Source of the DNA: Lachnospiraceae bacterium
Lineage (GTDB): Bacteria; Bacillota; Clostridia; Lachnospirales; Lachnospiraceae
Assembly: GCA_017557525.1 (NCBI GenBank)
Contig: JAFYYN010000095.1
Location: 1 to 48,233 of the forward strand
Length of the DNA: 48,233 nucleotides
Direction of reading: 5' to 3'
Made by a program: the position numbers and the translations under genes. The first letter of the stretch is position 1; each line of letters begins with the position of its first letter. Below are positions 34,196-37,467 of the stretch, piece by piece. Below the pieces are notes generated by a model that saw only the letters and a list, made by a program, of their open reading frames with translations, had not been told where the DNA came from and did not search any database.

Positions 34196-34375
34196 ATGAA
34201 AAGATTTTCTAAAACATTGGTTCTGTTAGTAGCTATTTCGTTAATTATTGGATCATTTGGAAGCATATGTGTACACGCTGACGAGTCAAAAACTTTATCT
34301 GCAAATGACAATTCGGCCATTAAATCGAAAAAGCCGAAGTTTTCTATCATTTGGGGAAAATGTGGTAATATATAA
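34196..34375 (+). CDS. Small secreted peptide precursor (59 residues)
   Basis: An AGAAAGGA site 6 bases upstream of ATG 34196 supports translation. The product has a basic start (MKRFSKT), a hydrophobic core (LVLLVAISLIIGSFGSI) and a signal-peptidase-like site ending VHA-DE. The mature part would be about 30 residues, basic toward the C-terminus, ending KFSIIWGKCGNI with one Trp and one further Cys. No modification enzyme, exporter or receptor gene is next to it. It could be a signalling peptide, a small antimicrobial, or the decayed 5' end of a longer secreted-protein gene. Below usual gene-length cutoffs, so it is easily missed. Confidence 0.6.
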   Translation: MKRFSKTLVLLVAISLIIGSFGSICVHADESKTLSANDNSAIKSKKPKFSIIWGKCGNI

Positions 34376-34407
34376 TTTTAGATATAAGATATAAGGAGCA
34401 TAAAGAT

Positions 34408-36507
34408 ATGTCTATCTATAAAATAAGTAAATTTCTTAAATCTATACTGTTTGCTCTGGTAGTTACCATGTTTATCGGTTTACTGACTCCCATAGATGTC
34501 AGTGCCGGTGGCAGTCTTTCTCTGTCTGACAAGGGTTATACTTTAAAGCAGGTGGTAGTGCTCAGCCGTCATAATATAAGAGCCCCTATGTCTACCAAGG
34601 GTTCTACGCTGGAGCAGGTGACTCCATATGAGTGGTATAACTGGTCGTCAAATGCGAGTGAGCTGTCTCTCAGAGGCGGTGTTTTAGAGACGGAGATGGG
34701 ACAGTACTTTAAAAAGTGGCTGGAGAGTGAAGGGCTTATCCCTGAAAACTATCATCCAGAGGGCGACGAAGTACGTTTTTATTCAAATTCCAAGCAGCGT
34801 ACCATAGCTACCGCGAAATATTTCTCGGCAGGACTGCTGCCTACCGCAAACATCGATATCGAGTATCATGTGGACTTTGATAAGATGGATCCGACCTTTA
34901 CTCCGGCGTTAAACTTTGTGAGTGACGAGTATATAAAGGATGCGACTGCTCAGACACATAAGCTGTTTGATGCAAAGGTTAAGGATTTAACCGATAACTA
35001 CGAGCTTATCGCCGATGTTATCGATATGGATAAATCTGAAAGCTACAGTGATTATGTATTTAATACTGAGTATGGTTTAAAATATGTTGTAGGGCAGGAG
35101 CCAACTACTGATGGTTCTTTAAAGCTCGGTACCAGTATAAGTGATGCTTTGGTACTTCAGTATTATGAGGAGGCCGACACTGTAAAGGCAGGTTTCGGTA
35201 ATGATCTTACCTTAGATCAATGGAAGGCTATCTCTGAGATAAAGGATGTATACGGAGATGTGCTCTTTACTGCACCTCTTGTGGCTACCAATGTGGCTAA
35301 TCCTCTGATCAAAGAGATCTACTCCGAGATGAATACAAAGGGCAGGATATTTACATTCCTTTGCGGTCATGACTCTAATATAGGAAGTGTCTTAGCAGCT
35401 CTCGGTGTTAAGGATTATGAGCTGCCCGATGCTATAGAGTCCAAAACTCCCATAGGCAGCAAGATTGTTTTCTCAAAATGGGAGAGCAAAAAGGGTAAGA
35501 CCTACTGGTCAGTGGATCTTGTTTATCAATCTGTGGATCAGCTCCGTACACAGCCCCTGCTTGACCTTGAAAATGAGCCTGTTGTTTACCATTTAAGCTT
35601 TAACGGTATAAAGCAGAACAAAGACGGTCTGTATAAGGCTAAGGATATAAAGAAGCTTTTCACCAACTCCATAAGTAAGTATGATGCTCTTTATGAAAAG
35701 TACTGTGATACTGTTGCTTACTTAGGACCTGAGGGTACATATACTCATGAGGCCTGCCAAAAGTTTTTCGAAGATGCAGGAAACACAGTACCATACAAGA
35801 CAGTACCAGAGGCTGTACAGGCATTAGTTGATAAAAAGGCCAAGTACGCAGTTATCCCTCAGGAAAATACTATAGGCGGTGCAGTCATAGATTATGTAGA
35901 TACTCTGATAGCTCAGACAGGTGTTTCGGTTATCGGTGAGGTGGAGCTGCCAATCAGCCAGAACTTACTTGTTTTACCCGGCACAAAGCTTTCGGATATC
36001 AAAACAGTGTATTCCCATAAGCAGGGTATCACCCAGTCCACTGAATGGCTAAAGAAAAATCTTCCTAATGCTCAAGTTGTTGAAGTTTCAAGTACTGCTG
36101 AAGGAGCCAGACTCGTTTCAGAAGGTAAGGATTCAGCCTTTGCAGCTATAGCATCGGCCGGGAGTGCTGATGTATATGGCTTGGAAATACACGCTGCCTC
36201 TATACAGGGTAACGAAAATAATAAGACAAGATTTTATGTTCTTTCAAATGAAAAACCTTCTACTGACAAAGCTCAAAGGCTTGCTTTCATCGCTAAAGGA
36301 AACGCTAATAACCTTCCCATGCTTTTAAGTAGCATGAATGAAAAAGGAATTACTCTGGTAACGCTTCACGACCGTCCTTTGAAGACTGTATTAGGTGAGT
36401 ACTATTATGTGATAGAATGTGAAGACTGTGATTATTCTAATTATCAGTCTATAGCTAAAACTAAAGGGTTTGAATTCAGGTATCTTGGTTCTTTTGATGT
36501 AAAATAG
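34408..36507 (+). CDS. Secreted histidine acid phosphatase fused to prephenate dehydratase
   Basis: The 699-residue protein begins with a signal peptide (SKFLKSILFALVVTMFIGLL...VSAGG). Residues about 45-400 are a clade-2 histidine phosphatase like glucose-1-phosphatase/phytase: R54-H55-N-I-R58-A-P60 and the later H321-D322 in CGHDSN. From about residue 436 (VAYLGPEGTYTHEACQ) to 615 it is a PheA-type prephenate dehydratase, with the catalytic T607-R608-F609 intact, followed by an ACT domain to the end. Prephenate dehydratase makes phenylpyruvate for phenylalanine synthesis and is normally cytosolic. One continuous frame joins them, and I see no internal ribosome site near the junction. AAGGAG lies 9 bases before the ATG. 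Confidence 0.93.
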   Translation: MSIYKISKFLKSILFALVVTMFIGLLTPIDVSAGGSLSLSDKGYTLKQVVVLSRHNIRAPMSTKGSTLEQVTPYEWYNWSSNASELSLRGGVLETEMGQYFKKWLESEGLIPENYHPEGDEVRFYSNSKQRTIATAKYFSAGLLPTANIDIEYHVDFDKMDPTFTPALNFVSDEYIKDATAQTHKLFDAKVKDLTDNYELIADVIDMDKSESYSDYVFNTEYGLKYVVGQEPTTDGSLKLGTSISDALVLQYYEEADTVKAGFGNDLTLDQWKAISEIKDVYGDVLFTAPLVATNVANPLIKEIYSEMNTKGRIFTFLCGHDSNIGSVLAALGVKDYELPDAIESKTPIGSKIVFSKWESKKGKTYWSVDLVYQSVDQLRTQPLLDLENEPVVYHLSFNGIKQNKDGLYKAKDIKKLFTNSISKYDALYEKYCDTVAYLGPEGTYTHEACQKFFEDAGNTVPYKTVPEAVQALVDKKAKYAVIPQENTIGGAVIDYVDTLIAQTGVSVIGEVELPISQNLLVLPGTKLSDIKTVYSHKQGITQSTEWLKKNLPNAQVVEVSSTAEGARLVSEGKDSAFAAIASAGSADVYGLEIHAASIQGNENNKTRFYVLSNEKPSTDKAQRLAFIAKGNANNLPMLLSSMNEKGITLVTLHDRPLKTVLGEYYYVIECEDCDYSNYQSIAKTKGFEFRYLGSFDVK

Positions 36508-36513: not shown

Positions 36514-36546
36514 AGAAAATCAATGATTGTAGGAGAAGTCATTACA

Positions 36547-37467
36547 ATGAGTGGAAACACCTTCTATTTTGAATGGGAAATAGCTTTAATAGAGTGGCTG
36601 CAAAGTACTTTAGGTTCTTTTGGGGAAAATGTTTCGACAGTACTTGCTCATTTTGGAGAAGAAATGATCCTGGTTGCTTTGATAGGATTTACTTACTGGT
36701 GTCTGGATAAGAAATTTGGAAGATATCTTGGTGTCAGTATATGTCTAGGTATAATTTCAAATGCACTTATAAAAAACATTTTCTTTAGACGCCGTCCATA
36801 CTTCGATAATCCTAGCATAAAATGTGTAAGGGCTGCTACACCAGATGCTGATATAATGGATGTGTCTGCACAAGGTTTCTCTTTCCCCAGTTGTCATTCC
36901 ACAAATGCGGTATCAACTTATGTTGGTATAGGTGCATATCTAAAAAAGAAAACATTGCTTATTGCAGGAATCATATTTTCACTTCTTATAGGTATTTCAA
37001 GACTTGTACTAGGTGTTCATTATCCTACCGATGTTATAGCCGGATTAGTTCTTGGAACAGTAGTTGCAATATTATCCTCATTTCTTTTAAACAGGGTTAA
37101 GAATCATATGATCCTTTACATTGTGATTTTTATCCTTTCTTGTGTCGGCTTTTTCTACTGTAAGAGTGAGGATTATTATACATCCATTGGAATAATGGGC
37201 GGATTCTTCTTTGGAGATCTGTTTCAAGAGAAGTATGTTAAATTTGAAAATACAAAAGTTTGGTATAAATGTATAATTAGGCTTATTGGTGGATTTGCGA
37301 TATTCTTTGGTTTTAATACTCTCTTAAAACTTCCTTTCTCAAAGGATCTTTTGGAGTCAGGTACTTTTTTAGCTTATTTGATAAGGTCAATAAGATACCT
37401 GATAGTCACATTTATGATAATTGGAGTATACCCAATACTATTTAAAAAGTTTTGCAAAGTATTTTAG
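36547..37467 (+). CDS. PAP2-superfamily membrane phosphatase
   Basis: An integral membrane protein of about 306 residues with roughly six to eight hydrophobic helices. The three PAP2 signature blocks are present in order: KNIFFRRRPYF, PSCHSTNA and SRLVLGVHYPTDVIAG, with the catalytic His in the last. Members dephosphorylate lipid substrates such as undecaprenyl pyrophosphate, phosphatidic acid or phosphatidylglycerophosphate outside the membrane. The start at 36547 is preferred because AGGAGAAG (36531-36538) lies upstream; the ATG at 36523 lies before that site. It follows the secreted histidine phosphatase, but the substrate is not shown by sequence. Confidence 0.92.
   Translation: MSGNTFYFEWEIALIEWLQSTLGSFGENVSTVLAHFGEEMILVALIGFTYWCLDKKFGRYLGVSICLGIISNALIKNIFFRRRPYFDNPSIKCVRAATPDADIMDVSAQGFSFPSCHSTNAVSTYVGIGAYLKKKTLLIAGIIFSLLIGISRLVLGVHYPTDVIAGLVLGTVVAILSSFLLNRVKNHMILYIVIFILSCVGFFYCKSEDYYTSIGIMGGFFFGDLFQEKYVKFENTKVWYKCIIRLIGGFAIFFGFNTLLKLPFSKDLLESGTFLAYLIRSIRYLIVTFMIIGVYPILFKKFCKVF

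Follow-up and report, generated by a model that had tools for sequence, protein, structure and literature searches.

The gene at positions 34408 to 36507 on the forward strand of the window, as we refer to the whole stretch of 48,233 nucleotides of Lachnospiraceae DNA analyzed here, joins a secreted-type histidine acid phosphatase to a prephenate dehydratase (PDT) and an ACT domain. This confirms the fusion noted in a preliminary description of the DNA, whose interpretation is partly supported by our data. Textbooks place the prephenate dehydratase step inside the cell. Judged from sequence comparisons, the PDT half of the fusion belongs to a distinct clade of exported, mostly lipoprotein-type PDTs, and we document below its architecture, export signals, clade membership, residue conservation and inheritance. 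Taken as a whole, we lean, with modest confidence, toward a secreted two-enzyme protein that would combine a Phe-insensitive prephenate/arogenate dehydratase, serving salvage at the cell surface, with an independently acting phosphatase.

Architecture of the Fusion Gene and Its Product

A single uninterrupted frame of 699 codons extends from the ATG at position 34408 to the stop at 36507 and is preceded by a likely ribosome-binding site (AAGGAG; 34393..34398, forward strand). Directly 5' of the gene lies a 59-residue frame with a signal-peptide-like start (34196-34375). The fusion protein begins with a predicted Sec (type I) signal peptide of about residues 1-33 (34408..34506), whose likely cleavage near VSA-GG was read by eye and whose residues 8-26 form a helix in our structure model. 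This signal peptide lacks a lipobox cysteine, whereas the unfused relatives of the protein mostly possess one.

The phosphatase domain (34540..35496) is of the Agp (glucose-1-phosphatase) type. It matches Pfam His_Phos_2 at residues 45-363 (E 8e-23; 81.8 bits against a cut-off of 23.6), finds the Agp structures 6rmr/1nt4 by phmmer with an E-value of about 4e-72, and scores 322.2 bits over residues 36-421 with the NCBIfam Agp-type model NF007553, below its equivalog cut-off of 425. Alongside the family match, the RHxxRxP and HD motifs characteristic of histidine acid phosphatases (PF00328) are present: in the RHNIRAP motif (residues 54-60; 34567..34587), R54, H55, N56, I57, R58 and P60 are invariant in all nine aligned phosphatases, and the same is true for GHD (residues 320-322; 35365..35373).

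The joint falls at approximately residues 433-435 (35704..35712), where phosphatase-only relatives end and the PDT family begins. It is followed by the PDT catalytic domain (residues 436-616; 35713..36255), which is recognized by Pfam PF00800 (E 3.2e-60; 203.5 bits against a cut-off of 25.2), by the structure model and by Foldseek, and which contains both the active-site pair Glu486-Asn487 (35863..35868) and the catalytic triad TRF (residues 607-609; 36226..36234). His_Phos_2 and PDT are the only Pfam domains above cut-off in the protein; neither a PheC-type solute-binding-protein dehydratase domain nor a chorismate mutase was found by this search. The intact TRF motif and the kept catalytic residues of both halves reported earlier are thus borne out by translation and alignments. 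The ACT domain reported with them (approximately residues 624-697; 36277..36498) finds no separate Pfam match at an E-value of 1 or better; we assign it because the NCBIfam model PRK11898 covers residues 435-697 (220.4 bits against a cut-off of 219) and because its secondary structure appears in the model.

By sequence, the nearest solved structures are Agp for the phosphatase half and the Streptococcus mutans PDT 4lub (E 2.7e-50) for the PDT half. In the structure model, whose mean pLDDT is 60.7 over the whole protein, the PDT-ACT half mostly reaches values of 70-96, and Foldseek ranks PDT structures first (top match 6vh5), with Agp structures lower down. We make no claim about inter-domain geometry, since the phosphatase half, based on a 47-row alignment, is modeled poorly.

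Residues 308-512 contain neither an ATG nor a TTG codon, and the only GTG codons, at residues 369 and 376, both lie within the phosphatase half; hence, the joint offers no usual start codon, in agreement with the earlier statement that no internal ribosome site is seen.

Recurrence and Inheritance of the Fusion

The full-length fusion occurs in 5 of 61 genomes (our own and 60 relatives), all from one genus. Its orthologues in G008, G010, G006 and G013 are 98, 76, 72 and 73% identical to the protein from our own genome (G000), and each starts, as judged by eye, with a signal-peptide-like N-terminus like that of the window protein. The single frame, its Sec signal and the existence of homologues with the same domain order, for which the preliminary description had proposed a search, therefore all stand. 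A genus-wide search of 24 genomes, many of them incomplete, recovered at E-values up to 1e-40 the same five fusions plus one cytosolic-type PDT (G007, 415-residue frame). Three of the other four genomes have the fusion at 72-76% identity, which excludes an origin by chance or by assembly error. All five fused PDTs group as a single clade (SH-aLRT 99 in one tree, 98 in another), so that one fusion event is the simplest reading. Phosphatase-only homologues are found in G007, G004 (two copies), G017 and G030; they stop at the joint or no more than about a dozen residues from it, and the G007 match continues beyond a TGA to residue 454.

Across nine divergent orthologue pairs, the PDT domain shows pN values of 0.12-0.19 against pS values of 0.73-0.85, with synonymous sites near saturation; pN is 0.20-0.25 in the ACT domain and 0.13-0.19 in the phosphatase. 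The signal peptide is more variable (pN 0.42-0.55), yet signal-peptide-like throughout. These values indicate that the fused PDT is under purifying selection. The tenth, close pair (window and G008) yields dN/dS values of 0.38 for PDT (9 changes) and 0.53 for ACT (3 changes), too few changes to judge. Between the two closest orthologues, the window gene (34408-36504) and L004, silent sites have diverged by about 0.17 across the phosphatase half and by 0.03 across the PDT half, an unevenness hinting at recombination within the fusion gene.

A gene for a PAP2-family membrane phosphatase (36523..37467, forward strand) starts 15 bases past the fusion gene and also adjoins the G008 orthologue; no such gene was recognized next to the three remoter orthologues, where approximately 1.5 kb of flanking sequence was viewed. 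Elsewhere, a 779-residue protein (L033, 179-2518, reverse strand; G004:C171) carries a PAP2 membrane phosphatase fused N-terminally to the same kind of Agp-like secreted phosphatase, and the PAP2 protein of the window is 28% identical to it. Another Agp-like phosphatase (L009, 988-2703; G017) has an extra N-terminal region of about 100 residues after its signal peptide.

A Clade of Exported Prephenate Dehydratases

A scan of a genome collection with the PDT half yielded 391 confirmed relatives, and the loci discussed here are the best 80 of these 391. They comprise 4 phosphatase fusions (L042, L043, L044, L110), 1 locus cut by a contig end (L067) and 75 others, 72 of them with a lipobox and 3 (L052, L058, L084) with a plain signal peptide. 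The lipobox call relies on a home-made rule, a hydrophobic stretch followed by a lipobox-like cysteine in frames read 5' of the PDT; a stricter first pattern accepted 58 of the same 75 loci, and the looser rule was falsely tripped by 2 of 52 cytosolic PDTs. Cytosolic PheA has no export signal; in contrast, a signal peptide is present in the window protein and its four orthologues, and a lipobox in 72 of the 75 relatives.

By record title, the carriers include Lachnospiraceae, Oscillospiraceae, Erysipelotrichaceae, Coriobacteriales/Atopobiaceae, Spirochaetota, one Riflebacteria bin and others, although the taxon of single MAG contigs may reflect mis-binning. Among the best 80 loci, 53 bear RUG, RUI, RGIG or Reindeer labels which, like several isolate names, we take to denote ruminant-gut projects. 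In an even class-wide sample of 391 genomes, the exported type was present only in our own genome (E 1.3e-140; next match 1.1e-59), and in a family-wide set of 397 genomes it was present in 6, our own included (E up to 1e-70). Counts this low indicate that the exported family is rare outside the habitats of the best hits. Three of the six (L161-L163) represent a second lipoprotein subtype with SHAQ in place of SHKQ and without C450/C671.

In a quick LG+G4 tree of 81 exported and 52 cytosolic PDTs, the latter from Bacillota relatives only, a single branch with an SH-aLRT of 100 separates the two sets. In a further tree of 80 exported and 4 cytosolic rows (L112 left out), which is mostly Bacillota, all 8 Actinomycetota sequences cluster together (97) and the 2 Spirochaetota sequences sit apart from each other; this placement of phyla suggests lateral transfer. 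A search for plasmid carriage gave no match at 1e-40. A phage search at 1e-20 returned nine records, all below 60% identity; among the five listed, two were annotated as pheA and three were unannotated.

Active Site and ACT Domain Motifs

We compared 85 exported with 52 cytosolic PDTs, near-identical rows being counted individually. Thirteen residues are common to both sets (G440, G443, E486, N487, S536, H537, Q539, Q543, T563, N605, T607, R608, F609), each kept in 84-85 of the 85 exported proteins with gaps as the only exceptions; the search patterns partly enforced conservation at positions 440-454 but not at the other positions compared. The Glu-Asn pair is present in all 85 exported and all 52 cytosolic PDTs, and TRF in 84 of 85 exported PDTs, the remaining one having a gap. 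Residues N487, S536, Q543 and T607 presumably correspond to the mutagenized E. coli catalytic residues N160, S208, Q215 and T278. The PDT domain of the fusion hence combines a significant PF00800 match with the TRF motif and the Glu-Asn pair.

The exported set has, in addition, a signature of its own: Q485 (84/85), G540 (85/85), K538 (77/85), and I489 and G490 (81/81 each), changes that adjoin the active-site motifs in IPQENTIGG and SHKQG. Furthermore, the ACT domain is altered. GALV and ESRP have been named as key motifs for binding the ligand, and TRF as critical to catalysis (PMC10845154). The GALV glycine (Gly634) is present in 51 of 52 cytosolic PDTs but is not one of the four commonest residues at this position in the exported set, which together account for 65 of 85 proteins, so that at least 65 have lost it; the window protein has Asn634. 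Likewise, Glu654 (46/52 cytosolic) becomes His in 83 of 85, and Ser655 (51/52 cytosolic) becomes Asp in 77 of 85. In the window protein, HDRP (residues 654-657; 36367..36378) consequently stands where the Phe-binding ESRP motif would be, and the GALV/ESRP pattern of Phe-regulated PDT-ACT proteins is missing. Because these Phe-binding motifs are changed across the exported set, the case made earlier for binding of aromatic amino acids by the ACT domain becomes weaker. Our prediction is that the exported PDTs are catalytically active and not inhibited by Phe.

A disulfide between C450 and C671, both kept in most exported PDTs, was considered and is unsupported: each cysteine is lost singly in some rows, and the search pattern biased the sample toward proteins with C450. 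That both occupy core positions is judged solely from the hydrophobic residues found there in cytosolic PDTs.

Fusion Partners and Gene Neighborhoods

Most exported PDT loci show no fusion partner. Seven of the 80 loci were searched with Pfam; in the others, wherever we read it, the stretch separating lipobox and PDT measures 15-53 residues. Two further fusions were encountered: a lipobox-GH3-PDT-ACT protein in Lachnospiraceae MC2017 (L083, 966-residue frame) and a lipobox-acetolactate decarboxylase-PDT-ACT protein in Oribacterium UBA4274 (L101, 695 residues). Judged by eye, the former keeps KHFPGHG and the latter HxH...GGH, which we take to be functional motifs of GH3 and acetolactate decarboxylase, respectively. 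The phosphatase is thus one of several partners, since most PDTs are free-standing exported lipoproteins and two are fused to GH3 or acetolactate decarboxylase. Given this distribution, free-standing or with other enzymes, we find no support for consecutive action of phosphatase and PDT on an aromatic precursor in phosphorylated form, as the preliminary description would have it.

No conserved operon emerged from 72 of the 80 loci (in 8, the PDT frame was missed by a simple ORF caller): no neighbor family occurred in more than 5 of the 72, and no transporter or receptor was recurrent. An acetolactate decarboxylase gene lies two genes from the exported PDT in 2 of 72 neighborhoods (L054, L093), and PAP2 genes are present in 3 (a fourth is weak), one of them the window's orthologue; both associations are suggestive only. 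An acetolactate decarboxylase was present in 10 of 22 exported-PDT genomes, some of which were picked because such a gene had already been seen, and was not found in our own genome. Among six such loci viewed, four encode exported forms, one being the L101 fusion.

Several of these loci deserve description in their own right. L164 (788-1651, reverse strand), L165 and L167 (508-2220) encode exported alpha-acetolactate decarboxylases, with lipoprotein-type or other signal peptides, in genomes that also have an exported PDT; in L164, a copy without signal peptide adjoins the exported one. At L054 (4001-7733), the genes after the exported PDT encode a PLP-dependent decarboxylase, an acetolactate decarboxylase and a nucleoside 2-deoxyribosyltransferase, the last beginning with a lipoprotein-type N-terminus. 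At L056 (2519-4592, reverse strand), a gene product with a lipoprotein-type N-terminus, related to the GH3 half of L083 (E 3e-123), is encoded beside the exported PDT.

Cytosolic Pathway in the Same Genomes

A check for a second pheA, as advised in the preliminary description, was positive: our own genome encodes another PDT-ACT protein (PheA, G000:C15) of 372 residues that has no signal peptide and whose N-terminus looks chorismate-mutase-like by eye. A further PDT match is present in 17 of 20 other exported-PDT genomes, and a single PDT in three (G063, G064, G075), for which genome completeness is not given. With a separate PheA in our own genome and a further PDT in 17 of 20 others, the exported PDT does not appear to be needed for cytosolic Phe synthesis. 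No exported CM_2-family chorismate mutase was found in our own genome, the only CM_2 match being a chorismate mutase-shikimate kinase without signal peptide.

Proposed Function and Alternative Explanations

The data lend themselves to the following model, in which the activity, the substrate and the biological role of the exported PDT are what we infer from sequence. An Agp-like phosphatase with a Sec signal peptide bears, at its C-terminus, a PDT-ACT module of the exported family. Outside the membrane, this module probably acts as a dehydratase/decarboxylase, converting prephenate to phenylpyruvate (or arogenate to Phe), with the substrate supplied by lysing or overflowing neighbors and the resulting phenylpyruvate (or Phe) taken up by the cell. 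Given the changed Phe-binding motifs of its ACT domain, it would be freed from Phe feedback. The phosphatase half would work independently on sugar or inositol phosphates, freeing phosphate or sugar, and the fusion would provide both enzymes with one signal peptide and co-localization, not channeling. Several points count against the model: the near-invariant Q485, I489, G490, K538 and G540 of the exported clade possibly indicate another substrate, no neighbor family recurs in more than 5 of 72 loci, no PDT besides the exported one was seen in three of 20 genomes, the only CM_2 match in our own genome has no signal peptide, and dN/dS in the window and G008 pair is 0.38 for PDT and 0.53 for ACT, although on few changes.

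The first of these points leads to the alternative that the exported PDTs use the same cleft to turn over some other released metabolite, be it a different cyclohexadienyl compound or an acyl substrate. The clade-specific changes beside the active-site motifs fit this idea, as does the PDT homologue GqqA, an N-acyl-homoserine lactone (AHL) acylase reported also to complement E. coli pheA (PMC8192741), whose structure 7am0 is among our Foldseek matches. Yet GqqA is described as keeping only two of the four E. coli catalytic residues (PMC8192741), whereas the exported set keeps all 13 compared positions, and the closest solved relative by sequence, 4lub, is an ordinary PDT; we regard this alternative as unlikely, though worth bearing in mind.

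Lipoprotein placement is typical of solute-binding proteins, and the preliminary description had envisaged a re-used binding domain. The PDT fold, which resembles type II binding proteins, could bind an aromatic ligand outside the cell, with catalysis incidental or absent. A sensing role of this kind has been proposed for exported CM-CDT enzymes (PMC10520331). What makes a binding or sensor function less likely, and in our estimate rather improbable, is that the 13 catalytic or structural positions are kept in 84-85 of 85 proteins, that no transporter or receptor recurs in 72 loci, and that the ACT ligand motifs are altered.

Three different exported enzymes end in the PDT module, and GqqA dimerizes through its ACT domains (PMC8192741), so that a mere dimerization or stability module for fusion partners could be imagined; however, enzyme partners were seen only in L083 and L101 among the 72 lipobox loci (Pfam on 7 of 80 loci), and such a role would not require kept catalytic residues, which renders it highly improbable. 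Apart from the rarity of the pairing, we found nothing in favor of an artefact, a pseudogene or a separately expressed cytosolic PDT, and five orthologous frames (four in records of the Tb.RUG, RUI and RGIG series: L042, L043, L044, L110), a frame still open at near-saturated synonymous sites and the absence of a usual start codon at the joint leave this explanation with a negligible probability.

If the salvage model holds, shikimate intermediates would be available outside rumen cells and worth processing. More speculatively, reactions of the shikimate and branched-chain pathways might take place outside the membrane in ruminant-gut bacteria of several phyla. Shared, laterally spread surface enzymes (exported PDT and exported acetolactate decarboxylase, sometimes fused) would there process intermediates leaked by a densely packed community whose cells lyse, whether for cross-feeding, for salvage or to clear signals; this we offer as a tentative possibility. 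Since several carriers look like isolates by record title (Oribacterium sp. P6A1, NK2B42 and KHPX15; Lachnospiraceae MC2017, MA2020 and NK4A144), the question can be tested in culture.

Comparison With Known Systems

Among the papers listed by searches of an open-access library, we found neither an exported PheA-type PDT nor a phosphatase-PDT fusion, and no paper there names both "prephenate dehydratase" and "histidine acid phosphatase," in keeping with the earlier impression that the pairing is undescribed. With the Agp glucose-1-phosphatase and the AppA phytase, the window protein shares the RHNxRAP and HD motifs and a whole-domain match, with 34-36% identity to solved Agp in Foldseek; it differs in remaining below the NCBIfam Agp cut-off and in adding the C-terminal PDT-ACT module. 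Cytosolic PDT/PheA proteins have the same PDT-ACT order, fold and catalytic residues, but the window protein is exported, falls into a separate clade, has replaced GALV/ESRP and has no chorismate mutase domain that we could find. GqqA shares the PDT-ACT fold (7am0; PMC8192741) but is only 22% identical in the Foldseek rows, and the terms "signal peptide" and "secreted" are absent from the main text of its report (PMC8192741).

The closest published analogue is provided by exported CM-CDT fusions (PMC10520331), for which that report describes a fusion without catalytic benefit, an absence of Phe feedback and a suggested role in signaling. Like these proteins and periplasmic PheC, the exported PDTs would be prephenate-to-phenylpyruvate enzymes outside the cytosol, can be fused to another enzyme and occur alongside a cytosolic pathway; freedom from Phe feedback, shown for CM-CDT, is predicted for the exported PDTs. 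The two groups differ in the dehydratase, which is PheC-type in CM-CDT (PMC10520331) and PheA-type PDT-ACT (PF00800) here. Furthermore, CM-CDT fusions are reported from nine Proteobacteria with chorismate mutase as partner (PMC10520331), whereas exported PDTs occur in Bacillota, Actinomycetota and others, are mostly lipoproteins and have a phosphatase, GH3 or acetolactate decarboxylase as partners. An exported PheA-type clade with kept catalytic residues, altered feedback motifs and no fewer than three fusions to other exported enzymes would extend the "enigma" of the exported CM-CDT enzymes (PMC10520331) to the Bacillota and Actinomycetota.
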